Below, in pieces: positions 2,838-63,004 of a stretch of DNA of 63,004 nt. The notes beneath the pieces were generated by a model that saw nothing but the letters and a program-made list of their open reading frames with translations, was not told the DNA's origin and ran no database searches. This DNA comes from a virus, in the IMG/VR virus record IMGVR_UViG_3300024265_000049, positions 1-63,004 of that record; one strand, written 5' to 3'. The translations under genes were made by a program, and so were the position numbers. Every line of letters begins with the position of its first letter. Position 1 is the first letter of the stretch.

Positions 2838-5800
2838 CTACAGAGTCCGTTCCGCCTGTTCTCTCAACTGCACAAGCTTTTGAAAAACTTCCTCGATTTT
2901 GGCCAACAGGGAATCCAGGGCTCCGCTGACCTCTTTGATTCCGTTTTTGGCGGCTTCGACCAGAGCAGGAATCAGTTCCGTCATCTCGGTAATTTTGACG
3001 CTGATACTGTCGATTTTTGTTTCGACCTTGCCTAGTCCGCCTTCCAGATCTCGAAGTATTCCAAGGGTCTTACCCTTGATCTCTTCGCCAAGAGCCTGGA
3101 GCCGCTTGATCAAATCCTGAAGACTGCCATCGTCTCCAGCAAGCTCCTTAGCCTGTTTTGCGGTTTCTGTCAGCTGAGTTGCTATGTCCTTGATTGCACT
3201 GGCAGACCTTTGGATTCCTTCAGCGACTTCTTTTTCCCCAAGCTTGGCCACGGCGTCGACCAGCTTCTTGACTTCGGCTTCTTTTTCAGCTACTTCAAGG
3301 ACACCCTCGAGAGCTTCCTTGAGCTTAGCAGGACCTTCGGATTCTGAGGATTTGACAATTGCGTCTATATTTTCTTGAAGTTTCTCGAAGTTGCCAGTTT
3401 CTACCGCCGTTGCCAAGGTAGCAAGGATCTCTTCAAGGGTAGTCTTGAAAGGCGGAAGCTTTTCCCCGAGGGTCGAAACGCTGTCAGATATAGCGCCTAT
3501 CGGTTCGGCGACTGCGCCGATAGCCGTACCCGCCTCGGCCAGCCCCGGAACGGCCTCGGCAACGGCAGTGCCGAGCTCCTTAATTCCTTCCCCGGCCTCG
3601 GGAGCTTTGGTGGCTATCTTCCCAACGCCAGCAGCAGTTTTGTTCGACTCCTTGGCAAGAGCCCCAACCCCTTCAGCTGCCTTCTTGGCCCCTTCGCCGA
3701 GATTCGTGAGCTTCTTGACCCCATCCGCCGTCTCGATGATTTTTATTGATTTGGATGTTTTTCTGGTTGAATCGCTCAGGCTGTCTGCGCTGTCCGCAGC
3801 CTTGTCCGATGCGGTAGTCCATGAAAAAATGAGATCGATTCCGTCGTCTATCTCCCCGTCGAGAGCCGCAACCCCTTCGGCTGCCTCTTCCGCCCCAGTG
3901 CCTAAATTGGTGAAACTCTTGACCCCTTTGTCAGTTTCGAAAGATTCGATCGAAGCAGACGCGTCGTCAAGCGCCTCGCTAGTATTGCTTGCCTTGCTGG
4001 CCGTTTCGTCCAGTGTCCGATTGTAGTCTAGAATTTTGCCGGCAGACGTTTGCCCTGTTTCTCCTGTTTTTTCGAACGCTTTGTCAAGTTCTCCGAGAAG
4101 ATCAGCGAGCTCGAACGCTTGAACGCCCCCGCGCTCTCTCAGGCGTTCGAGCTCGGTGACAATCAGCCCGACATTGTTTCGCGCCGTGGCGCTAAGGTTG
4201 TCGAACTCAGACCCGCCCTTGATGATCTTATTTGCCAACTCGTCCAGTTCTTGGCCAACCTGTCCCGTAACATCTTCTACAACCGCCAGTCCAGCAGCCG
4301 CTTGCCGCGAGACAGCATCCGTTTCGGCGAGCGCTTGATTTGCCCCAAAAATAGCGTTTATATCGTCTTGCACGGGATCGCTAAGGCCAAGCCCGCCGGC
4401 CGCATCCTCTTGGATCCGATTCACCAGATCGCGAACGTCTGACAGCTGATCCCGGACCCCTTCTACCCCGGTTGCGCTTACCCCGATCTCTGCGCCCGCC
4501 CCTCTCTCGCTTTCGGCAAGCAGAGCTCTGCGTTTTGCAGCAAAATCCCCGAGCTCTTTTAGTTGTTCCTTGTTTGAGTCCTTCAGATTGTCCAGAAATC
4601 TTTTTTGCGCAGCATTCGCTAAGTCTTCCCGTTCAGCCTGCTCCTTTCTAAGCAAAGCCTTTCGTTCTGCCGCTGCCGCTTCTTCGGCTGCTAATTGATC
4701 TTCAAGCCCTCTTTTTTGCCGGTCTTCGATCCTTTGCAGGATCTTTTCTACTGCGCCGTCAGCGTCTTCTAGAACCTTAATGGAAAGCCCGGTTACCTTA
4801 CTGATCGCAGCAAAAAGAGTTTCCGAGCCCTTGATGTAGCCAATAAGAAACCGGTCAAACGTATTGGCTGCCAGGTCCCACAACTTGATCCAGTCCCCGG
4901 TAACGAACCCCACAAGAGCCCGGGTCAGATCTTGCAACTGATCAGAAATTATCTTGAATGCTCCGGAAACGCTCCCGGCTACCGATTTCCCGCTGATCTC
5001 CAGTTGGTCAAAAAGCTTGAGCCATTCTTCAAGCTCAGGGATCATGTTCTCGCCGATTTCTCGGCCAGTTTCGAAAATCCCATTCTGCACTCTTTGAAGT
5101 GTTGACCTGAAGTCCGCGGCATTCTTGAGCACTGCCGGGCCAAACAATTTGGGCAGCTCAGCTGCCAGTACAATCGTCGCCTCTTTGGCCGGGATCAAGC
5201 CCTTCTTCTGGAGTTCAAAGAGCCTCTCAGTAGTAATTCCCAGGCCCCGTGCAAGAGCTTCGGTGACGCCGGGCAGAACCTCCATGATAATCTTGAGATC
5301 CTGCATCTCAAATTTGTTCTTTGCTAGACCTTGCTCTACTTGCCTGAGTGCCCGATTCAACTCTTCTTGAGTCCGGCCCGCACCCGTAGCGGCAACTGAA
5401 AAACCTTCAACGATTGCCTCTGACTCTTTGAGAGTCAGGCCCATGCGCAAAGCGGTATTGATGAATTTTGCGGTCGATTCCTCAAGCCCCTGGAGATCAG
5501 CCCCCAATGCTTTAGCCCTGGCCCGGACCCGTTCTAGAACTTCGTCGGCTCCAACGCCATCAATGGCGTCCAGGGCGTTCTCGAGACGTTTCAGGTCGTT
5601 AGCGGCCCTGACGGCAGCTCCGCCAAGCTCCGCAACTTTCCGGACCACTATTGCGGCAAAGAATCCGGTAACGGCCGTCCGCAAGCCCTGGAAAGTGCTG
5701 GTCAGTTTCGAGAACTTAGAAGGGGAAGCGTCCTGGGAAAACTTCTTGAATTCCGTCCTGGCTCGCCGAGTGGCCCGCTCTACGTCCTTGAGCTCTTTCT

Positions 5801-6191
5801 CGGTCGCATTCAGCGCCCGCGGAGCACGTTTTCCGAATTCGAGCATGGCGCGGCCAGCTCGGTCCACCTCTGCCCTAAGCCGCTGTGTCGACTTAGCGGC
5901 CGGATCAAAATCGATTCGCTTTGACGCCTTCCCCAGTGCTCTTGCCGCCCGGGTAAACTCCTTTTCAAGACGGTCGCCTTCCTTGGTGAGCTCTTTGACG
6001 TCTCGAGTTGTTTCGTCAAGCTCCTTTTGAGCCCTGTCAAGCCCCTCGGTGTCAAGCTTGAGATCTTGCTTTTCAAGATCGCTAATAGCCGAATCCAAGT
6101 CACGAACCCCAGACCCCAGCTTGGCAACTTTGCTGAGCTCCGCCCCGGCAAGCTCAACGATCAGCTTCAGGACGGCCGTAGCATCAGCCAT
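2838..6191 (-). CDS. Tail tape measure protein
   Basis: 1117 residues, the longest gene. Almost entirely helical and coiled-coil, rich in Ala, Glu, Lys and Leu. About residues 150-420 resemble the conserved tape-measure core, including a hydrophobic AVTGFFAAIVVRKVAELGG segment and helical blocks around GVTEALARGLGIT. Near residues 750-900 there are near-repeats (KKLTNLGEGAKKAAEGVGAL versus KSFTNLGTGAEEAAEGVAAL). The protein sets tail length inside the tail tube and is ejected during DNA entry. At about 1.5 angstrom per residue the tail would be roughly 160-170 nm. No frameshifted chaperone pair is seen upstream. Confidence 0.9.
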   Translation of the reverse strand: MADATAVLKLIVELAGAELSKVAKLGSGVRDLDSAISDLEKQDLKLDTEGLDRAQKELDETTRDVKELTKEGDRLEKEFTRAARALGKASKRIDFDPAAKSTQRLRAEVDRAGRAMLEFGKRAPRALNATEKELKDVERATRRARTEFKKFSQDASPSKFSKLTSTFQGLRTAVTGFFAAIVVRKVAELGGAAVRAANDLKRLENALDAIDGVGADEVLERVRARAKALGADLQGLEESTAKFINTALRMGLTLKESEAIVEGFSVAATGAGRTQEELNRALRQVEQGLAKNKFEMQDLKIIMEVLPGVTEALARGLGITTERLFELQKKGLIPAKEATIVLAAELPKLFGPAVLKNAADFRSTLQRVQNGIFETGREIGENMIPELEEWLKLFDQLEISGKSVAGSVSGAFKIISDQLQDLTRALVGFVTGDWIKLWDLAANTFDRFLIGYIKGSETLFAAISKVTGLSIKVLEDADGAVEKILQRIEDRQKRGLEDQLAAEEAAAAERKALLRKEQAEREDLANAAQKRFLDNLKDSNKEQLKELGDFAAKRRALLAESERGAGAEIGVSATGVEGVRDQLSDVRDLVNRIQEDAAGGLGLSDPVQDDINAIFGANQALAETDAVSRQAAAGLAVVEDVTGQVGQELDELANKIIKGGSEFDNLSATARNNVGLIVTELERLRERGGVQAFELADLLGELDKAFEKTGETGQTSAGKILDYNRTLDETASKASNTSEALDDASASIESFETDKGVKSFTNLGTGAEEAAEGVAALDGEIDDGIDLIFSWTTASDKAADSADSLSDSTRKTSKSIKIIETADGVKKLTNLGEGAKKAAEGVGALAKESNKTAAGVGKIATKAPEAGEGIKELGTAVAEAVPGLAEAGTAIGAVAEPIGAISDSVSTLGEKLPPFKTTLEEILATLATAVETGNFEKLQENIDAIVKSSESEGPAKLKEALEGVLEVAEKEAEVKKLVDAVAKLGEKEVAEGIQRSASAIKDIATQLTETAKQAKELAGDDGSLQDLIKRLQALGEEIKGKTLGILRDLEGGLGKVETKIDSISVKITEMTELIPALVEAAKNGIKEVSGALDSLLAKIEEVFQKLVQLREQAERTL

Positions 6192-12490: not shown

Positions 12491-12767
12491 GATGCCCCTT
12501 TTGCGTATTAGGCTTCTGCTCTCCCGCACCATCGCTTTGGTCGATCCCCAGCTCCGGATCGTTCAGCGGCGAGACCAGGGCCGCAGCAAGCCTGAGAGCG
12601 TATGCCGCCTCGTCGACTTCGCTGGAGATCGACCGGCGCAAATCGCCAGAGACCGAGGCGAGAAGCAGGTCGAGAGCCATAGCGGTCTTGCGCATCGCGG
12701 CAGCAATGGCCTTGTCGATGTCGGTCTCTTCCCACCGCAAGGGTCCGCTGAGCTTCGCCCCCTCCAT
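12477..12767 (-). CDS. Small helical protein, unknown
   Basis: 96 residues behind AAAGGAAACCTCAT-ATG. Ala-rich amphipathic helices (AIAAAMRKTAMALDLLL, EAAYALRLAAALV) and a His-rich C-terminal tail. Overlaps the next gene by 14 bp. No family recognised. Confidence 0.6.
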   Translation of the reverse strand: MEGAKLSGPLRWEETDIDKAIAAAMRKTAMALDLLLASVSGDLRRSISSEVDEAAYALRLAAALVSPLNDPELGIDQSDGAGEQKPNTQKGHHEGH

Positions 12768-12833
12768 ATGAGGTTTCCTTTCGCGTAATGCCGGAACTGG
12801 GTCGCCCTGGCAGGGAGGAGCATAGCACAGAAC

Positions 12834-12870
12834 GCAAAAGACCCCCGGAACGGCCTATTCCAGAGGTCTT
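12834..12870 (-). terminator. Rho-independent terminator
   Basis: Stem AAGACC/GGTCTT with inner GGAA/TTCC, followed on the minus strand by TTTTGCG. It follows the small gene 12948-13148 and so would end or reduce transcription leaving the tRNA-Met region. Confidence 0.6.
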
Positions 12871-12947
12871 GGCAGTCTCCTTAGAGCTTTTGACGAAGGC
12901 TCAGAGAATGGGAGGTCGTCGCCGGGACCCCAATTGCCAGGAGCAGT

Positions 12948-13148
12948 CTACTCCGCTTCCTGCTCCTGGGGCAACCCCATCTTCGCCTCTTCGTCAATCT
13001 CGCTCTTCGGCAGGTCTTCGGAGCTTGCCCGGTCTTGATCCTTGCCCTCTTCTCGATCCCGGCTGAAGCACCCTCGACCTGCCTCAAAATCTGTGCCGTC
13101 AGCTGGCCTGAGAGCCCCTGTCTGGTACATGTGCCGAGCGCTACGCAT
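12948..13148 (-). CDS. Small acidic protein after tRNA
   Basis: 66 residues starting 20 bp after the tRNA 3' end, behind AGAGGACCCCCGTT. The C-terminal half is charged and acidic (SEDLPKSEIDEEAKMGLP), unlike a shadow frame. A competing frame at 12881-13087 is strongly basic and less convincing. Unknown function. Confidence 0.5.
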   Translation of the reverse strand: MRSARHMYQTGALRPADGTDFEAGRGCFSRDREEGKDQDRASSEDLPKSEIDEEAKMGLPQEQEAE

Positions 13149-13168
13149 AACGGGGGTCCTCTGGATAG

Positions 13169-13242
13169 TTGCGGGAACCGGATTCGAACCGATGCATACT
13201 GGGTTATGAGTCCAGCGCTCTACCAGACTGAGCTATCCCGCG
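13169..13242 (-). tRNA. tRNA-Met(CAT), initiator type
   Basis: 74-nt cloverleaf without encoded CCA. Acceptor CGCGGGA/TCCCGCA leaves C1 opposite A72, the hallmark of bacterial initiator tRNA. D-arm GCTC...GAGC, anticodon loop CTCATAA in a CTGG/CCAG stem with G29-C41 and G30-C40 (A31 opposite C39 replaces the third G-C pair), and T-arm ATCGG-TTCGAAT-CCGGT. Lies between two late genes, one base from the upstream stop codon, so it must be cut out of the late transcript. Confidence 0.9.
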
Positions 13243-13761
13243 TTACTTTTTGGCAGTCTTCCCCCGAGGCTTTCTTGCTTTTTTGGCGACAGGCTTCGCT
13301 TTTGTGGTAACCGGCTTATGCCCTTCCGCCATCTTCTCCAGGGCCACCCCAACACCGTCCTGGGACGCCGCTTCTCGGAACCCTCTGATTGCCTTTAGGC
13401 GAGGCCCTTCAAGATCCCTATCAACTTGGTAAAAGCTCCGAAGGGCAATGTCGGTCAATCGGTCTTTTCCAGGATTAAGCAATTGGCCAAAGTAGAAGAT
13501 TCCGCGAATGTGGAGCTGCTGCACGTCGAAGGCAGTAAGGCCATGGATCTTGTCCAGGTCGTCGGCACCTTCCACCCTGTCAAGGGCGACGAGGAACCGG
13601 GCGTGCCGGCCCTTGCTGAGTTCGCGTTCATACTCGCCGAAGCTTGCCCAATGAGGTTCGCCAATATTACGACTCCCGAACTGACGAGCCGTAATACATC
13701 GAACCTTCTGGCCATCATCCGAAATCGTAGCGCCCCGAGGGGCTTTGTGTTGATTCGTCAT
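13243..13761 (-). CDS. Capsid-region protein with basic tail
   Basis: 172 residues. Middle helical segment (FDVQQLHIRGIFYFGQLL) resembles a helix-hairpin-helix, then a Lys/Ala/Pro-rich basic tail (KPVAKKARKPRGKTAKK) like DNA-binding or head-interior tails. Sits between the capsid accessory gene and tRNA. Function unknown. Confidence 0.65.
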   Translation of the reverse strand: MTNQHKAPRGATISDDGQKVRCITARQFGSRNIGEPHWASFGEYERELSKGRHARFLVALDRVEGADDLDKIHGLTAFDVQQLHIRGIFYFGQLLNPGKDRLTDIALRSFYQVDRDLEGPRLKAIRGFREAASQDGVGVALEKMAEGHKPVTTKAKPVAKKARKPRGKTAKK

Positions 13762-13823
13762 GTCTACCCTGGGCTAGGCATCAAGCTGCCGAAAAGTCTT
13801 GCTAGGCAAGCTGCCAGAACTTC

Positions 13824-14444
13824 CTAGATGCCCCTGGGCGCGTAAGGCGGAACGTGTGAGGCGACGAAACCATAGACGGCAGAGATATCGGCCGTATCAA
13901 GGCTACCGGCAGAAAGATCAGCGGTGAACTTGACTCGGAAGAAATTGAGGCCGATCGAAGGGCGCACGCCAAAGCTCAGGCGCACGACCGTCAAGACGTC
14001 GGTCTCAGCTCCTGACGCAATTTTGACTGTGATATCGTCCTGGACGTTCGCCGTTACTCCGACCTCCTGGTCCTCTTTCGGGGTCAGCCCCAGCTCGACA
14101 ATGTCAACATTGAGCGGAACGGCCGGAACTATAGTCAGAGCAGCGGCGTCAGGGTCGCCGCTACTGTCGGGGGGGGCGGTTTCTATCTTGAGAGCCTTGA
14201 GCTTCAGATTCTCAGCATCGGCCAGCGTAGTCAAACAAATGACCATCAGCTCAAGGGCAAAAAGCTGTTCCCCTTCGGTACCATGGGCCGTCAAGCTTTC
14301 AGTGTTCAGGCCAGTCACAGACACCCATTCTCCGATGTGCTCCTGATTGTCGGTACCGGCAGCGGCTACGATCGCTTTTGTAGCAAGAGCAGGATAGATA
14401 CCATATCCGGCCTCGTGCGGAACTTTGGTCTTTGCAATGTTCAT
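13824..14444 (-). CDS. Capsid accessory/decoration candidate
   Basis: 206 residues, beta-rich, acidic, no Cys-rich or membrane part. Directly after the major capsid gene with a hairpin in the 135-bp gap, a common place for decoration or head-stabilising proteins. Assignment is positional. Confidence 0.5.
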   Translation of the reverse strand: MNIAKTKVPHEAGYGIYPALATKAIVAAAGTDNQEHIGEWVSVTGLNTESLTAHGTEGEQLFALELMVICLTTLADAENLKLKALKIETAPPDSSGDPDAAALTIVPAVPLNVDIVELGLTPKEDQEVGVTANVQDDITVKIASGAETDVLTVVRLSFGVRPSIGLNFFRVKFTADLSAGSLDTADISAVYGFVASHVPPYAPRGI

Positions 14445-14523
14445 TCGGTCATTCTCCTGCCCTTACGGGCTCTTTGGTTCTCGGCTTGCCTCATTCAGAC
14501 CCGGGAAGCTACCCCCGGAGTGA

Positions 14524-14552
14524 CAGCAGCCCCGAGGGGAACAAGGCTGCTG
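14524..14552. other. Hairpin after major capsid gene
   Basis: 8-bp stem CAGCAGCC/GGCTGCTG with a 13-nt loop in the gap between capsid and next gene. There is no U-tract on the minus strand, so it is more likely an RNA-stability or attenuating element than a full terminator. Nothing else is visible in 14445-14579. Confidence 0.4.
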
Positions 14553-14579
14553 TTTCGGCTCGAGAAGGGGAAATCGAGC

Positions 14580-16028
14580 TTAGGAACCAGAGGTTGCCTG
14601 TCCGATACCGCCCCAGTTGACGTCGTTCCAGATGAACCCAGCCTCTGCCCTGCGCATCTCGATGTCATGGTACGCCTCTAGGAGCATAGCTCCCGAGGAT
14701 CGCTCGAACAGATGATAGGAACCGCTTGACTGGGACGTGTCGGTCACGGAACCCTCGAGAGACGTCCGCACGTTAACCATTTGCTCCTCAGCAAACATGA
14801 CCTCCGCCATGTCCACCAGGATCAAGGTTGAACCTTTGCCGCCAGGATCCCCCGTAGTCGTAATGCGAGTCGTCCAAAATAACGGGATGCCGCCCAGGGT
14901 GCCGTTCCGCTCTACGGATGGCCAAGCAGGCGAGCCGTCATTCGTACGCTGCTCGGCAAAGAAATCGAAATCTCGCCAGCTCGTAAAGTAGACCAGTCGC
15001 TGGGGATCAATGGACGCGTCGGCAATGGCGGCCTTGCCAGTCCTGATATCAAGGACCACGTTGTTGATGCGTGTCGCGTTGCTATCAGCAGCAGCCAGCA
15101 CAACCGCAGTCTTGGCATGGTCGGCATCGATCAGCGTAGTCAAGCCCTTCGGGCGCGCTAGCGTACCGTCGCTGAGCAGTGCGGCTGAATCGATCGCAGC
15201 GGAAGCGCCAGCCAGCATGTCGTTCAGGATGAAAGCGTCCGTTACGACCGTAGACCTCTCCAATGCCCGGAGCGAGAAAATCACGATACCCTTGAGGATC
15301 TTTGCCACCAGGGCACGTTCCGCAAAGCTGACTCCCGTGCGATCAGGGACCGAGTCCTCGTTTTCGACGTAGGAGAAACTCGTCCCCTCGGTTTGCACCA
15401 GATAGGTAGCCTTGCCACCAGTAAGCGGTACCACAAGCGGAGAGGCTGCTAGAAACACAGTGCGCGGACGGAGGAATTCGACCAGTCCGTCGAGGAACAT
15501 GTCCGGAATGGTAATACCGATTCTCGAAACGCGATCAGAACGAAGCTGGTCATCAGCAAGCACGTTCTTTTCCAACGCTTGAGTAACCGGATGATCCTCG
15601 CCATGGAGCTTGACGGCAAACTGGAGCGGCGTCATGCCTCCGCCACTGGGGCTGCTTTTCTGGCTGAACGCCGCGAGCATGGCAACCCGAAAGCAGCATG
15701 CCGCATATTGCCCGGGAAACACTTCGCCAGAATGCCGATCAGCGAAACTGTAGCGTACTCGGCGCTGAATGGTCGGACGCACCGCTTCGGGAATACCGAT
15801 AGCGAATTGCTCAGCGCTCCAAAACTCGGGAACGTCGATCCGGCCGGCGTTGTTTCTCACCCGACTTTCAAACTCGGCCATCCTGGTGTCAATAGCTGCG
15901 ACCTGACCAGGAAGAGCGTTCAGGCCCGCCTCTTCCATGACCGAACTTAGAACCGTCTGCATGTCCTCGACACTGACGCCACCGCCGCCGCCACTTTCAC
16001 CGCACCGAAGATTCGTCTTGACTTTCAT
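14580..16028 (-). CDS. Major capsid protein, HK97 fold
   Basis: 482 residues. An N-terminal region of about 110-180 residues acts as the likely delta/scaffold domain. The rest follows the HK97 pattern: IPDMFLDGLVEFLRPRTVFL, then beta sequence with TEGTSFSYVENE, a long middle A-domain, and the C-terminal EAYHDIEMRRAEAGFIWNDV typical of this family. Preceded by an HK97-type protease gene 15 bp upstream, as expected for capsid maturation. Confidence 0.85.
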   Translation of the reverse strand: MKVKTNLRCGESGGGGGVSVEDMQTVLSSVMEEAGLNALPGQVAAIDTRMAEFESRVRNNAGRIDVPEFWSAEQFAIGIPEAVRPTIQRRVRYSFADRHSGEVFPGQYAACCFRVAMLAAFSQKSSPSGGGMTPLQFAVKLHGEDHPVTQALEKNVLADDQLRSDRVSRIGITIPDMFLDGLVEFLRPRTVFLAASPLVVPLTGGKATYLVQTEGTSFSYVENEDSVPDRTGVSFAERALVAKILKGIVIFSLRALERSTVVTDAFILNDMLAGASAAIDSAALLSDGTLARPKGLTTLIDADHAKTAVVLAAADSNATRINNVVLDIRTGKAAIADASIDPQRLVYFTSWRDFDFFAEQRTNDGSPAWPSVERNGTLGGIPLFWTTRITTTGDPGGKGSTLILVDMAEVMFAEEQMVNVRTSLEGSVTDTSQSSGSYHLFERSSGAMLLEAYHDIEMRRAEAGFIWNDVNWGGIGQATSGS

Positions 16029-31131: not shown

Positions 31132-31208
31132 TGGTGGGGCGCCCGGGACTCGAACCCGGACGAAACGCATAAGGATGCGCGTCCTCTTTCCATTTGGGAT
31201 AACGCCCC
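31132..31208 (-). tRNA. tRNA-like gene with 6-nt anticodon loop (Arg-CCT or Lys-CTT uncertain)
   Basis: 77 nt with encoded CCA. Acceptor GGGGCGT/GCGCCCC, D-arm TCC...GGA with the usual GG in the loop, T-arm CCGGG-TTCGAGT-CCCGG. The anticodon stem pairs as GCGCA/TGCGT, leaving a 6-nt loop TCCTTA instead of 7 nt, so anticodon CCT or CTT cannot be settled. The stem can even close further to a CCTT tetraloop. Either a frameshift-type tRNA, a tRNA-like RNA, or one base lost in sequencing (an extra T would give tRNA-Arg CCT). Confidence 0.65.
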
Positions 31209-42514: not shown

Positions 42515-42673
42515 ATGAAGTCATTCTCTGAGATCAAGCAGGAAATCGAACGCCGCCGAGACGAAGCCTGGATACGGTCCCTAAACACCAAGAAGACGCG
42601 TTTGGTACAGAGGCTCGCTCTGGCTCGACACGACGAAATGACCCGACTTCTTGAGTGGCTGGGAAACGCATAA
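42515..42673 (+). CDS. Small basic helical protein before helicase
   Basis: 52 residues (MKSFSEIKQEIERRRDEAWI, then KKTRLVQRLALARHDEM) behind AAGGAGAGATCAGC-ATG. Strongly charged helices. Its stop overlaps the helicase start as TAATG, indicating coupling. Possibly a helicase partner. Too short for routine gene finding. Confidence 0.7.
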   Translation: MKSFSEIKQEIERRRDEAWIRSLNTKKTRLVQRLALARHDEMTRLLEWLGNA

Positions 42674-44850
42674 TGGAGTCCAAGGGTTCTGGAAGGGCAA
42701 AGACAGCGATAGAGTGGGGGCGACAATTCCAGGTTCAGGAAGCCACCGTTGGGCGCCCGGAAATCGGTCCCGGCCTCATCGAGTGGATCGCCCAGGCTCC
42801 GGGAGTTGGCAAAGTCACTGCAAAGGGCATCGTCAAACACTTCGGCGACATGGAAATCGAAGAACTTCTCGAGACGATCAAAGACCCTGCCCGTCTCGAA
42901 GAAATTGACGGTATCGGACCCGCAAAGGCCAAAGCCGTAGCCAGGGGATCCAGGAAACGAAGCGAGCGGGACCAGCTGACTATGGACTTGCGAGACAAAC
43001 ACGTCCCGCTGGCAGCCGTGGCGAGGGTTTTGAGGAAGTTCGGAGACGATGCCTCCGAAGTAGTCCGGCGATACCCCTACGGCCTACTTGACGTCAGGGG
43101 CATAGGATTCGCGACAGCGGACAAGATCGCCCTGGCTTCCGGCTTTGTGTCGTACGGTTCATTTCAACGGATACAGGCCGGGGTTGTCGAAACACTGAAC
43201 CAAGCAGCTGGCAGGGGCCACGCCTATCTGCCAATCAAAATCCTACTCAATGGCGACAAGGACAGGGGACTCAAAGGAGCAACCAGACTCCTGAAGCTCA
43301 AAGAGGCGACCATTGGCGGCTATCTGCGGAAAATCGTGAACTCCGGGAAGATCCACATCGACGGAAACAGTGTTTATCTAGACAAGAACAATCGTGAAGA
43401 ATCGGTGGTCTCGATACGGCTATCTGCCCTTTCGAAGGTTAAGGTCGCCACAATTGAAGCCGGCGCACTTCCGGGCCAGCTGATGACAATCACATCAAAC
43501 GAGACCGCCGTCACTCTCAGTCACGACCAGAACTACGCAGTGACCACCTCTTGCCACCAGCCGGTCATAGTGGTCACTGGAGGCCCAGGGGTCGGCAAAA
43601 CGGCCATAACTCAGGCAATCGTTAAAACATGGCATCGAGCCGGACTGAACATCGAACTGTGTGCACCCACGGGCAAAGCTGCAAAGCAGCTCGAAAAAGC
43701 CACCGGCTGCGAAGCAAAAACAATTCACCGGCTCCTCGAATATGGGCCGCAGGGCTTTGCCCGTTCCCGACAATTCCGCCTATCCTGCCAGGCCCTTGTC
43801 GTTGACGAGTCCAGCATGCTTACCACTAGCATGGCAGCGCGATTGCTGGATGCTATTCCTCTTGGTTGTAGGATAGTGATCGTTGGCGACCAGGATCAAC
43901 TTCCAAGCATCGGATACGGAGCGGTACTTCGAGACATCATAAAATCCGAGAAAATACCAGTAATTCGACTAAATAAAGTCTTCAGGCAATCCGCCGGGTC
44001 GCGGATCGTGACAAACGCGCACCGATTTATCAACGGGAAACCACTCGAGTACCCTGGTCACGGAGAAAATTCCGATTTCTGGATCCACAGAAAAAACACC
44101 TCTGCCGGGATTCTCGAAGCTCTCGACGGTTTCCTAACTCGCCATATCCCTGAAAGGTTTGGCCTTGACCCACTCAAGGACGTCATGGTCCTGACCCCGC
44201 TAAATGGTACCGAGCTCGGAACCGTTGCTTTGAACTTACGTCTCCAAAGCCTGCTAAATCCAGATGGCCAGAAGGTGGGAAACTGGCCTATCCGAGTAGG
44301 AGACAGAGTTATGCAGGTGAGAAACAACTACGCCCTCAAAACTTTCAATGGCGACGTCGGGGCAGTCTTGTCATGGGATCAGCGGAAGAAGGAGGCGTGG
44401 CTACAGTTCGAAAACAGGGACATCCTTTACACAAAAGAGCACCTGGAAGGGCTCCTCCCTGCCTACGCGTGCACAGTCCACAAGGCACAAGGAGGCGGGT
44501 TTCCAGCCGTAATAATGATCGTTCACGATGAACACAAATGGCACCTGAAGAGAAGCCTAGTCTATACCGGAATGACCAGGGCCGAAAAACTACTTGTCCT
44601 CATAGGGCAGTCGGCAACACTGACCTATGCCAGTGGCAATCTGAGAGACGCAAACCGTTTCACCGGCCTCGCCGAAAAATTACTTCACCCGCCATCGGAA
44701 CTTCCGGAACTCAACAGAGCCGAAATGATCAAATCTAAGCTATACACTTGCGACGCCTGCCAGCGCTCTTTCGCAAGCGACAGCCCGCAAATCTTCGAAT
44801 GCCCCGAGTGCGGAGAATCCGACCAAATCAGAGAACTTGGGAACGAGTAG
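42673..44850 (+). CDS. RecD2-like SF1 DNA helicase with C-terminal zinc ribbon
   Basis: 725 residues. Residues 35-160 contain helix-hairpin-helix repeats (APGVGKVTAKGIVKHFG, IDGIGPAKAKAV, VRGIGFATADKIAL), the N-terminal domain of RecD2/YrrC. Then Walker A TGGPGVGKT (302-310), DES motif II at 378-380, GDQDQLPS motif III, TVHKAQGG motif V and YTGMTRAEKLLVL motif VI. The last 40 residues add CDAC...CPECGE, a zinc ribbon not usual in RecD2. A 5'-3' helicase for replication or recombination. Start chosen by the TAATG overlap. Confidence 0.9.
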   Translation: MESKGSGRAKTAIEWGRQFQVQEATVGRPEIGPGLIEWIAQAPGVGKVTAKGIVKHFGDMEIEELLETIKDPARLEEIDGIGPAKAKAVARGSRKRSERDQLTMDLRDKHVPLAAVARVLRKFGDDASEVVRRYPYGLLDVRGIGFATADKIALASGFVSYGSFQRIQAGVVETLNQAAGRGHAYLPIKILLNGDKDRGLKGATRLLKLKEATIGGYLRKIVNSGKIHIDGNSVYLDKNNREESVVSIRLSALSKVKVATIEAGALPGQLMTITSNETAVTLSHDQNYAVTTSCHQPVIVVTGGPGVGKTAITQAIVKTWHRAGLNIELCAPTGKAAKQLEKATGCEAKTIHRLLEYGPQGFARSRQFRLSCQALVVDESSMLTTSMAARLLDAIPLGCRIVIVGDQDQLPSIGYGAVLRDIIKSEKIPVIRLNKVFRQSAGSRIVTNAHRFINGKPLEYPGHGENSDFWIHRKNTSAGILEALDGFLTRHIPERFGLDPLKDVMVLTPLNGTELGTVALNLRLQSLLNPDGQKVGNWPIRVGDRVMQVRNNYALKTFNGDVGAVLSWDQRKKEAWLQFENRDILYTKEHLEGLLPAYACTVHKAQGGGFPAVIMIVHDEHKWHLKRSLVYTGMTRAEKLLVLIGQSATLTYASGNLRDANRFTGLAEKLLHPPSELPELNRAEMIKSKLYTCDACQRSFASDSPQIFECPECGESDQIRELGNE

Positions 44851-61256: not shown

Positions 61257-63004
61257 TCAAATCGCCGTCCCTAACTTGATCAGCAATCGCGTAGCCCGTT
61301 GCAACGTCCCAGAATCGTCCCTCTCGTCTACGTGCTCAAGTTCCTCGATCCAGGCGTTTGACGGGAACGGATAGGCATCCGGGTCAATGCCCAGCTCTAC
61401 CGACTCGAGTCTGACTGGATCCAGCACCGCCAGCAGGGCATTCAGCGGCACCGTCAAGGGTACATCAGCAGCTACCAACCGTCGCAACTCAATCTGCGCA
61501 AGCCGATCAGCCTGAGCGGCCGTCTCGACTCCGAAGTCGAAACGAATCGAATCGGTCCATGGTGGCACTACCAGCCCGTCAGGCAAGCACGCAATTCCGC
61601 GAATCTCGATCACGTTTTTCTCAAACTCAGACTCTTCGTTGCAGACTTGAGCAATCGGGAGATGGCTGGTTAATCCTGTTTTAGTAACGGTTGGAAATGG
61701 CTTACCCTCTCCGTTGACTGAGGACATGATTTCCGTATGAGTACCGCCACCCTCGGCGATAAACGGTCTCCGCACCGTCAGAATCGCACGGCCAAACAAG
61801 GACTCCGTCGACGATTCGGTACCATCCCTGTATTGATAATCGTCTCCGTCTGGACGCTCAAAACCGAGATCAGTTTCGACGCGCAAAGTCTCGAAACCTC
61901 CCGACCGGTCATCGGATGTCGGTGTTTCGATATCCAGCAAGCTGATCAGCGTAGTCTGAAAACTCAACCATTCAAGTCTGACAAATTCAACCCCCCAACG
62001 GGCCATGCCGCCAGGCGGGGAAAACACAACCTCAGGGCCGACAATTACACCATCCGGCTCGCCTGGTCCTATCCATAGCTGGTCATCGCCCAGGATCGGC
62101 AGTCCTCCTCCCCTGGTCAACGTGTTGGAGATCACAAAGGCCGCTGTCCAGTCAGGGGGGGAAGTCAAGTCCTGCCGCCATGCTGCCTCGAGCATTCCCC
62201 AACCGCCTTGGCCCTTTTGAATCTTTGCCAGTCGCCCAGTCTTGCCGATTGGCATGGTCAAGTCTTGCCCAGGGTCGGGAGGCCCAAGAGGTGCAAATTC
62301 CGAATCCCTGAAATGCTCCTCTCGGGCATATTCGACGACTACAAAGCGAGGGCTTAGCCATTGGAAAACAGGAGCAGTGTCGTCTTTAGATGGAATCGAT
62401 TCAGTGAAGAAGTAGCCAAACGCTCGGTAACCGCTGAAGGGTAGTCCGTCGAGCGACCCTACGGCCGTCCGATATCTCCACGCTTCGGGATTGTGGAATT
62501 GCCAAACGAATCTCTCTGTAACCTGAGGGCAGCCTAAATAGAACGACTCACGGACAATGATCCGCTCGATCACCTGCTCCACTTCCTGTGGAGCAGGTGC
62601 GGTTACTACATTGATGTCCCCTCCGCCGTCCTGGAACCAGCCGGCGACTGGCACAGTAAAGAAGTCCACCGTTTCGGATTCGACCCTTTCTCGCACTGTC
62701 CAGGCGTCGGACAAGTCGGGAATAATCGGCCGATCTCCTTCGATCGCCAGGCACTGTGGTGTGGTTTCCCAGTCTGTAGCAACCTCGACCCCCGCAACGT
62801 CTACCCTGTCGACCCTAATAGTGACTACGGGCTCCAGGTGTACCGGGGCAGCGTGCCGAGCTGTGATTTCCCCTGAACGCGTCTCTAGGAGCCTGTAGCC
62901 GTAGCTCTCGAGTATCTTGCCGGCCATATCGGGAGCTGACTCACAGTCGACCTCGAGGCGCTTGACCAGCGGCTCGCCGACGGAAGCGTCTATTGCGATC
63001 AGAT
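61257..63004 (-). CDS. Large tail/baseplate protein, C-terminal part (continues at 15-795)
   Basis: Second half (about 556 residues counted to the ATG inside the end overlap) of the roughly 800-residue protein. Beta-rich with VSPNGEGKPFPTV-type turns and a C-terminal segment with LTVPLNALLAVLDPVRLESV. Place after tape-measure-associated genes and before fibre genes suggests the central baseplate hub. Only the 5' part lies at the contig start. Confidence 0.7.
   Translation of the reverse strand, partial: LIAIDASVGEPLVKRLEVDCESAPDMAGKILESYGYRLLETRSGEITARHAAPVHLEPVVTIRVDRVDVAGVEVATDWETTPQCLAIEGDRPIIPDLSDAWTVRERVESETVDFFTVPVAGWFQDGGGDINVVTAPAPQEVEQVIERIIVRESFYLGCPQVTERFVWQFHNPEAWRYRTAVGSLDGLPFSGYRAFGYFFTESIPSKDDTAPVFQWLSPRFVVVEYAREEHFRDSEFAPLGPPDPGQDLTMPIGKTGRLAKIQKGQGGWGMLEAAWRQDLTSPPDWTAAFVISNTLTRGGGLPILGDDQLWIGPGEPDGVIVGPEVVFSPPGGMARWGVEFVRLEWLSFQTTLISLLDIETPTSDDRSGGFETLRVETDLGFERPDGDDYQYRDGTESSTESLFGRAILTVRRPFIAEGGGTHTEIMSSVNGEGKPFPTVTKTGLTSHLPIAQVCNEESEFEKNVIEIRGIACLPDGLVVPPWTDSIRFDFGVETAAQADRLAQIELRRLVAADVPLTVPLNALLAVLDPVRLESVELGIDPDAYPFPSNAWIEELEHVDERDDSGTLQRATRLLIKLGTAI
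62879..63004. repeat. End overlap, copy 2 (circular contig)
   Basis: Identical to 15-140. Confidence 0.9.

Follow-up and report, generated by a model that had tools for sequence, protein, structure and literature searches.

The window—i.e. the whole stretch of 63,004 bases analyzed here—is one virus record (IMGVR_UViG_3300024265_000049). An identical 126-bp direct repeat stands at both ends (15-140 = 62879-63004), which suggests that the genome is probably complete and was assembled circularly. Its genes include those of a tailed phage (tape measure, major head protein, head protease, portal, and lysis, all from PHROGs), along with a primase/helicase and a RecD2-like helicase. The latter (42655-44850, plus strand; phrog_4412, 1.7e-123) is among the few long plus-strand genes, and the nonstructural part also holds direct repeats at 48644-48814/49308-49479 (172 bp, 89.5%) and 39153-39224/39689-39760 (72 bp, 98.6%).

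The sole confident tRNA gene of the window is complement(13169..13242). It is placed within a head-tail module transcribed from the same strand, between the major head protein upstream (14580..16028, minus strand; PHROGs phrog_617, 3.1e-25) and the tail tape measure protein at the downstream end of the module (2838..6191, minus strand; PHROGs phrog_2335, 2.6e-22). Immediately upstream, a 172-aa ORF (13243..13761, minus strand) has no PHROGs match, and its TAA stop directly abuts C1 of the tRNA (13242). No sigma-70-like promoter was found near the tRNA in 12500-14600; this, together with the abutting stop codon, points to a polycistronic late transcript as the probable precursor of the tRNA.

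A second tRNA-like sequence lies at 31132-31208 (minus strand), with a perfect T-arm, a seven-pair acceptor stem, and an encoded CCA. Its anticodon loop has 6 nt, its D-arm is poor, and it scores 28.3 bits to the tRNA family (cut-off 29). Candidate identities include a degenerate tRNA, a tRNA-like RNA, or an attachment core.

Searches against named phages gave no match to the window DNA or to one large protein, and no close relative; the primase/helicase protein search also found no relative, and that with the major head protein returned only one, a near-identical contig. The record IMGVR_UViG_3300028610_002326 carries the identical tRNA and differs from the window at 1 position over 21,446 bases. 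Given this second assembly, a sequencing error in the tRNA is unlikely, provided the two assemblies derive from different samples.

Anatomy and classification of the tRNA

Both programs used for detection agree with the earlier note that a tRNA with anticodon CAT is present: ARAGORN reports tRNA-Met(cat) at complement(13168..13242), and Rfam RF00005 matches 13169-13242 on the minus strand with 60.6 bits (gathering score 29; E=1.2e-10 for the whole window). Positions 1-73 of the tRNA occupy 13169..13242. Read 5' to 3' on the minus strand, the gene consists of the 5' acceptor strand CGCGGGA (13236..13242; C1, G2, C3, G4), TA, the D-arm GCTC-AGTCTGGTA-GAGC (13217..13233), G, the anticodon arm CTGGA-CTCATAA-CCCAG (13199..13215, with the anticodon CAT at 13206-13208), the variable loop TATGC, ATCGG TTCGAAT CCGGT, and the 3' acceptor strand TCCCGCA (13170..13176, last base A72), followed by A73 (13169) and C. 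The CCA end is not encoded, and CTA follows the tRNA instead. The predicted folding has a z of -1.5, compared with -1.1 for E. coli tRNA-fMet in the same test.

Several features are those of an initiator. The C1/A72 mismatch claimed earlier can be read directly: C1 at 13242 stands opposite A72 at 13170 with no Watson-Crick 1-72 pair, and C1-G72 is excluded. The acceptor pairs G2-C71, C3-G70, and G4-C69 are all present, the anticodon CAU sits in the CUCAUAA loop expected of initiators, and the D-loop AGTCTGGTA is a loop found in bacterial initiators. The count of two anticodon-stem G-C pairs out of three was also exact, with G29-C41 and G30-C40 present. At the third position A31 stands opposite C39 (13211/13203), a mismatch that interrupts the run of three consecutive G-C pairs (29-41, 30-40, and 31-39). 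The D-stem is of the elongator type (C11-G24, U12-A23, and C13-G22) and lacks the purine 11-pyrimidine 24 pair (A11-U24). The minus strand, the elongator D-stem, the missing CCA, and the position of C1 directly after TAA all come in addition to what the earlier note had described.

These features bear on separate steps of initiation. Formylation is governed by 1xA72 with 2:71, 3:70, and 11:24 (PMC7949028); A11-U24 assists it, and the absence of this pair here counts against an initiator reading. On the ribosome, 16S A1339/G1338 reach 30-40 and 29-41 but leave 31-39 untouched, and translation drops 20-fold when G30-C40 is swapped (PMC11497404). As such, the initiator-type label of the earlier note stands for the acceptor end and for the two 16S-contacted stem pairs, and does not stand for the D-stem or for the unpaired 31·39.

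We built a simple position-specific score from 21 cellular initiators, 35 phage mismatch tRNAs, and elongator-type sets. Controls separate clearly: E. coli fMet scores 104.6 bits as initiator vs 33.5 as elongator, while E. coli Met (-26.0 vs 50.3) and Ile2 (-26.5 vs 59.2) show the reverse. The window tRNA scores 52.8 bits as cellular initiator, 51.6 as phage mismatch tRNA, and 43.3 as elongator. Its parts diverge: the acceptor favors the initiator (25.1 vs -6.1 for elongator) and the D-stem the elongator (8.8 vs -6.5 for initiator), and, once positions 1-3/70-72 are excluded, the remainder scores 49.5 as elongator vs 41.7 as initiator. On these scores, the window tRNA is a chimera of an initiator acceptor on an elongator D-stem and not a standard initiator.

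The tRNAs closest to that of the window come from phages. Across 60 fixed positions, those of Rhizobium phages V1VFA-S and B1VFA share 53 with the window tRNA, X66 shares 52, and Xanthomonas phage RiverRider 51, compared with 45 for E. coli fMet, 39 for elongator Met, and 35 for Ile2. Of the two features expected of an elongator or Ile2 tRNA, the pyrimidine 11-purine 24 pair is present, and a Watson-Crick or G·U 1-72 pair is absent. The window tRNA belongs to a grouping that we define here as phage CAU tRNAs with a 1·72 mismatch, G2-C71/C3-G70, and G30-C40. We file it as a variant among phage-encoded initiator-type tRNAs because it lacks two features of the cellular family—i.e. the three G-C pairs and purine 11-pyrimidine 24.

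Known tRNAs share different parts of this build. The T5 tRNA-fMet (AY543070, 32428-32505; GenBank annotation "initiator tRNA fMet") is likewise a phage CAU tRNA with an unpaired 1·72 (U·U in T5), a GCGGG acceptor, and G30-C40, and it too falls short of three G-C pairs (A29-U41 and U31·G39). However, T5 keeps A11-U24, encodes CCA, and carries the gene among many other tRNAs, whereas the window has C1·A72, C11-G24, A31·C39, no CCA, and the sole confident tRNA of its phage. The tRNAs of V1VFA-S, B1VFA, X66, and RiverRider resemble the window in C1·A72, the GCGGG acceptor, pyrimidine 11-purine 24, G29-C41, and G30-C40, but have A31-U39, an encoded CCA, and other tRNAs adjoining, and are annotated simply as tRNA-Met. 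E. coli metZWV tRNA-fMet has the same C1·A72, G2-C71, C3-G70, G4-C69, G29-C41, G30-C40, and CUCAUAA loop and a similar D-loop; it differs in the R11-Y24 D-stem and in G31-C39. In the laboratory, as cited in PMC7949028 and PMC11231383, transplanting C1xA72 and the three G-C pairs makes elongator tRNA-Met initiate; compared with that construct, the window tRNA is natural, viral, and has two of the three G-C pairs.

Initiator-type tRNAs across viral contigs

Searching IMG/VR with the anticodon loop and the T-arm as the sole fixed elements, which leaves positions 1 and 72 free, we obtained at least 102 unique CAT tRNAs on at least 75 contigs. In 37 of the 102 matches listed, positions 1 and 72 form a genuine mismatch, namely C·A (12), U·U (11), A·A (4), or another combination. 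G2-C71/C3-G70 is present in 34/37 of these compared with 16/65 other viral CAT tRNAs (p=1.6e-11), and G30-C40 in 35/37 compared with 32/65 (p=1.1e-6), again among the matches listed. After clustering these matches at 75% identity, the p-values become 2.9e-6 and 8.5e-5, respectively. Within the 37 mismatch tRNAs among the matches listed, entropy is 0.36 bit at 30-40 and 1.7-2.5 bits at 27-43, 28-42, 29-41, and 31-39.

Because of this enrichment and the low entropy at 30-40, the phage mismatch group is marked by the formylation end and by the pair gripped by A1339. The joint retention of the 1·72 mismatch, G2-C71/C3-G70, and G30-C40, which is seen repeatedly in unrelated phages, fits selection for formylation and P-site gripping, and not drift. 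Other parts vary: all three G-C pairs occur in just 8/37 phage mismatch tRNAs, and CCA is absent from 14/37, both among the matches listed. An unpaired 31·39 occurs in 0/37 among the matches listed, a zero that is inexact because ARAGORN may miss some. We find no overall link between a 1·72 mismatch and being the sole tRNA of a record (7/37 vs 8/50 records, among the matches listed).

Cultured phages with C1·A72 tRNAs further include those of Rhizobium, Xanthomonas, Stenotrophomonas, Erythrobacter, Variovorax, and Streptococcus. Besides T5, a Stenotrophomonas phage has an initiator tRNA annotated in its record. The earlier note's remark that initiator tRNAs are rare in phages is therefore not supported: given the T5 and Stenotrophomonas annotations, the cultured carriers, and the mismatch in roughly one in three CAT tRNAs from IMG/VR (among the matches listed), individual phage initiator tRNAs are already on record and as a kind they are not rare. 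The literature searched, from which most subscription papers were absent, yielded no survey of initiator-type tRNAs in phages. Erythrobacter phage vB_EliS_R6L (65.7 kb) carries an unannotated C1·A72 tRNA(CAT) at 401-477, between its terminase and portal genes.

A second pattern, with acceptor positions 2-7 and the elongator D-stem fixed and positions 1/72 free, defines the chimeric class. On viral contigs it yields 20 unique parsed tRNAs, of which 15 are mismatched at 1·72; within this pattern-selected class (n=20), one has A31·C39 and one A31·G39. The chimeric form also occurs in cultured Rhizobium and Xanthomonas phages. The exact pattern with C1 and the elongator D-stem has no match in the genomes of 84,980 prokaryote species. 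Dropping C1 from this pattern gives prokaryote genes with G1 in 96/97 parsed cases, 92 of them G1·U72, among the matches listed, with three outliers among these matches (G·A in 2, U-A in 1). Given these two results, the C1 chimeric form looks viral within the limits of the exact pattern.

The chimeric tRNA is the sole tRNA in 10/13 records of this class compared with 15/87 other records (p=3e-5), where the class is pattern-selected and many records are fragments. The two G·A outliers, tRNA(CAT) genes on prokaryote contigs (L258 and L291), have G1·A72 with an elongator D-stem, and L291 lies near a Mu-like prophage I protein. The Rhizobium beringeri plasmid pRlX6 (119 kb, NZ_CP140813.1) carries an unannotated tRNA at 63453-63527, near a ParA gene, that is identical to that of Rhizobium phage V1VFA-S; this plasmid is possibly a phage-plasmid.

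Proposed function and competing explanations

We propose that the phage encodes here a working initiator-type tRNA with a chimeric build, a reading to which we give a probability of roughly 0.6. The tRNA would be transcribed together with the late head-tail genes and excised by RNase P and 3' nucleases, after which the host would add CCA. Host MetRS would charge it, host Fmt would formylate it owing to its acceptor end, and IF2 would use it in the P-site, such that the phage tRNA would supplement or replace host tRNA-fMet while structural protein is started in bulk. It would then be a naturally occurring equivalent of the elongator tRNA-Met that C1xA72 and anticodon-stem G-C pairs convert into an initiator in the laboratory. 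Plausible reasons for carriage are a larger initiator pool in the late burst, or the replacement of host tRNA-fMet cut by a toxin (e.g. VapC). More speculatively, the phage tRNA may survive host nucleases that cut tRNA-fMet, since its anticodon stem departs from the nearly invariant host one.

The A31·C39 mismatch is the weak point of the initiator reading, because 4-bp anticodon stems are rare in initiators (82/50,849 bacterial tRNA-fMet, i.e. 0.2%, vs 27.3% of elongator tRNA-Met; PMC13092985) and none of the 37 phage mismatch tRNAs among the matches listed is unpaired there; reduced activity, elongator use, or decay would all be compatible with it. Elongator use would mean a tRNA-Met, or an Ile2 tRNA after C34 lysidine, that has a weakened acceptor end and reads internal AUG/AUA, with the 1·72 mismatch being incidental. 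The stem frequencies fit such a tRNA, as do the elongator scores of the D-stem and of the body outside the acceptor end, and, with poor formylation, canonical tRNA-fMet itself can elongate (PMC7949028). One might even speculate, under the superwobble idea of PMC13092985, that a 4-bp stem allows AUA reading. An incidental mismatch, however, is not expected to cluster as strongly with G2-C71/C3-G70 and G30-C40 as it does in viral CAT tRNAs (among the matches listed), cellular elongator matches to the chimeric-class pattern are almost all G1 (96/97 parsed, among the matches listed), and the window tRNA is closer to E. coli fMet than to elongator Met or Ile2. We thus consider elongator use unlikely.

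Decay would make the gene a recently acquired initiator-type tRNA under relaxed constraint, of which A31·C39, the loss of CCA, and the unusual TATGC variable loop would be signs. Close relatives do have A31-U39 and an encoded CCA, an unpaired 31·39 is absent from the phage mismatch tRNAs among the matches listed, and the predicted folding is modest, though E. coli fMet scores no better. Yet all remaining stems are intact, the Rfam score is 60.6 bits, the gene is identical in a second assembly, and more than a third of phage mismatch tRNAs among the matches listed (14/37) also lack CCA. The mismatch itself may be a retained pair, as A+·C is isosteric with the G·U wobble. Decay therefore appears rather improbable to us.

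The altered 31·39 could also be the point of the gene. As a special case of the functional initiator-type reading, the tRNA might escape a VapC-type cut at the base of the anticodon stem and still initiate. VapCs of several bacteria, including an alphaproteobacterium, cut initiator and not elongator tRNA-Met, with a sequence- and stem-loop-specific cut between anticodon stem and loop (PMC8522696), and phage initiator-type tRNAs keep G30-C40 while varying the adjoining pairs (among the matches listed). Such variation could nonetheless be neutral, and one survey finds that phages facing anticodon-targeting VapC generally avoid encoding tRNA-fMet (PMC10264068), which leaves nuclease resistance as a doubtful addition.

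Integration into tRNA genes is frequent among temperate phages, and several of the viral matches to an initiator pattern are canonical genes of bacterial initiators that probably mark the borders of prophages; the gene could accordingly be a host remnant at an attachment site. We reject this origin as highly improbable: the gene is complete and surrounded by head-tail genes, the phage genome has a 126-bp repeat at its ends, no integrase family occurs among 67 proteins, and no prokaryote in the 84,980 species matches the exact C1 and elongator D-stem pattern.

Beyond this genome, we tentatively suggest, at somewhat less than even odds, that tailed phages commonly carry divergent initiator-type tRNAs that follow a simpler rule—i.e. 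an open 1·72, G2-C71/C3-G70, and G30-C40, with the rest free, including the use of an elongator D-stem. The window tRNA would then be a near-minimal chimera that either draws initiation toward phage mRNAs or persists when host tRNA-fMet is attacked.

Most of what is known about the requirements for a bacterial initiator tRNA comes from mutants of a single E. coli molecule. A set of viral tRNAs in which just the 1·72 mismatch, two acceptor pairs, and G30-C40 are retained offers an independent evolutionary answer to the same problem, as well as a source of ready-made test molecules. The window tRNA belongs to a larger and little-described population of start-type tRNAs that bacterial viruses carry quite often. 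A start tRNA that is the sole confident tRNA of its phage is not explicable by rare-codon supplementation, and why a phage with a single confident tRNA chooses a start tRNA becomes a directly testable question.
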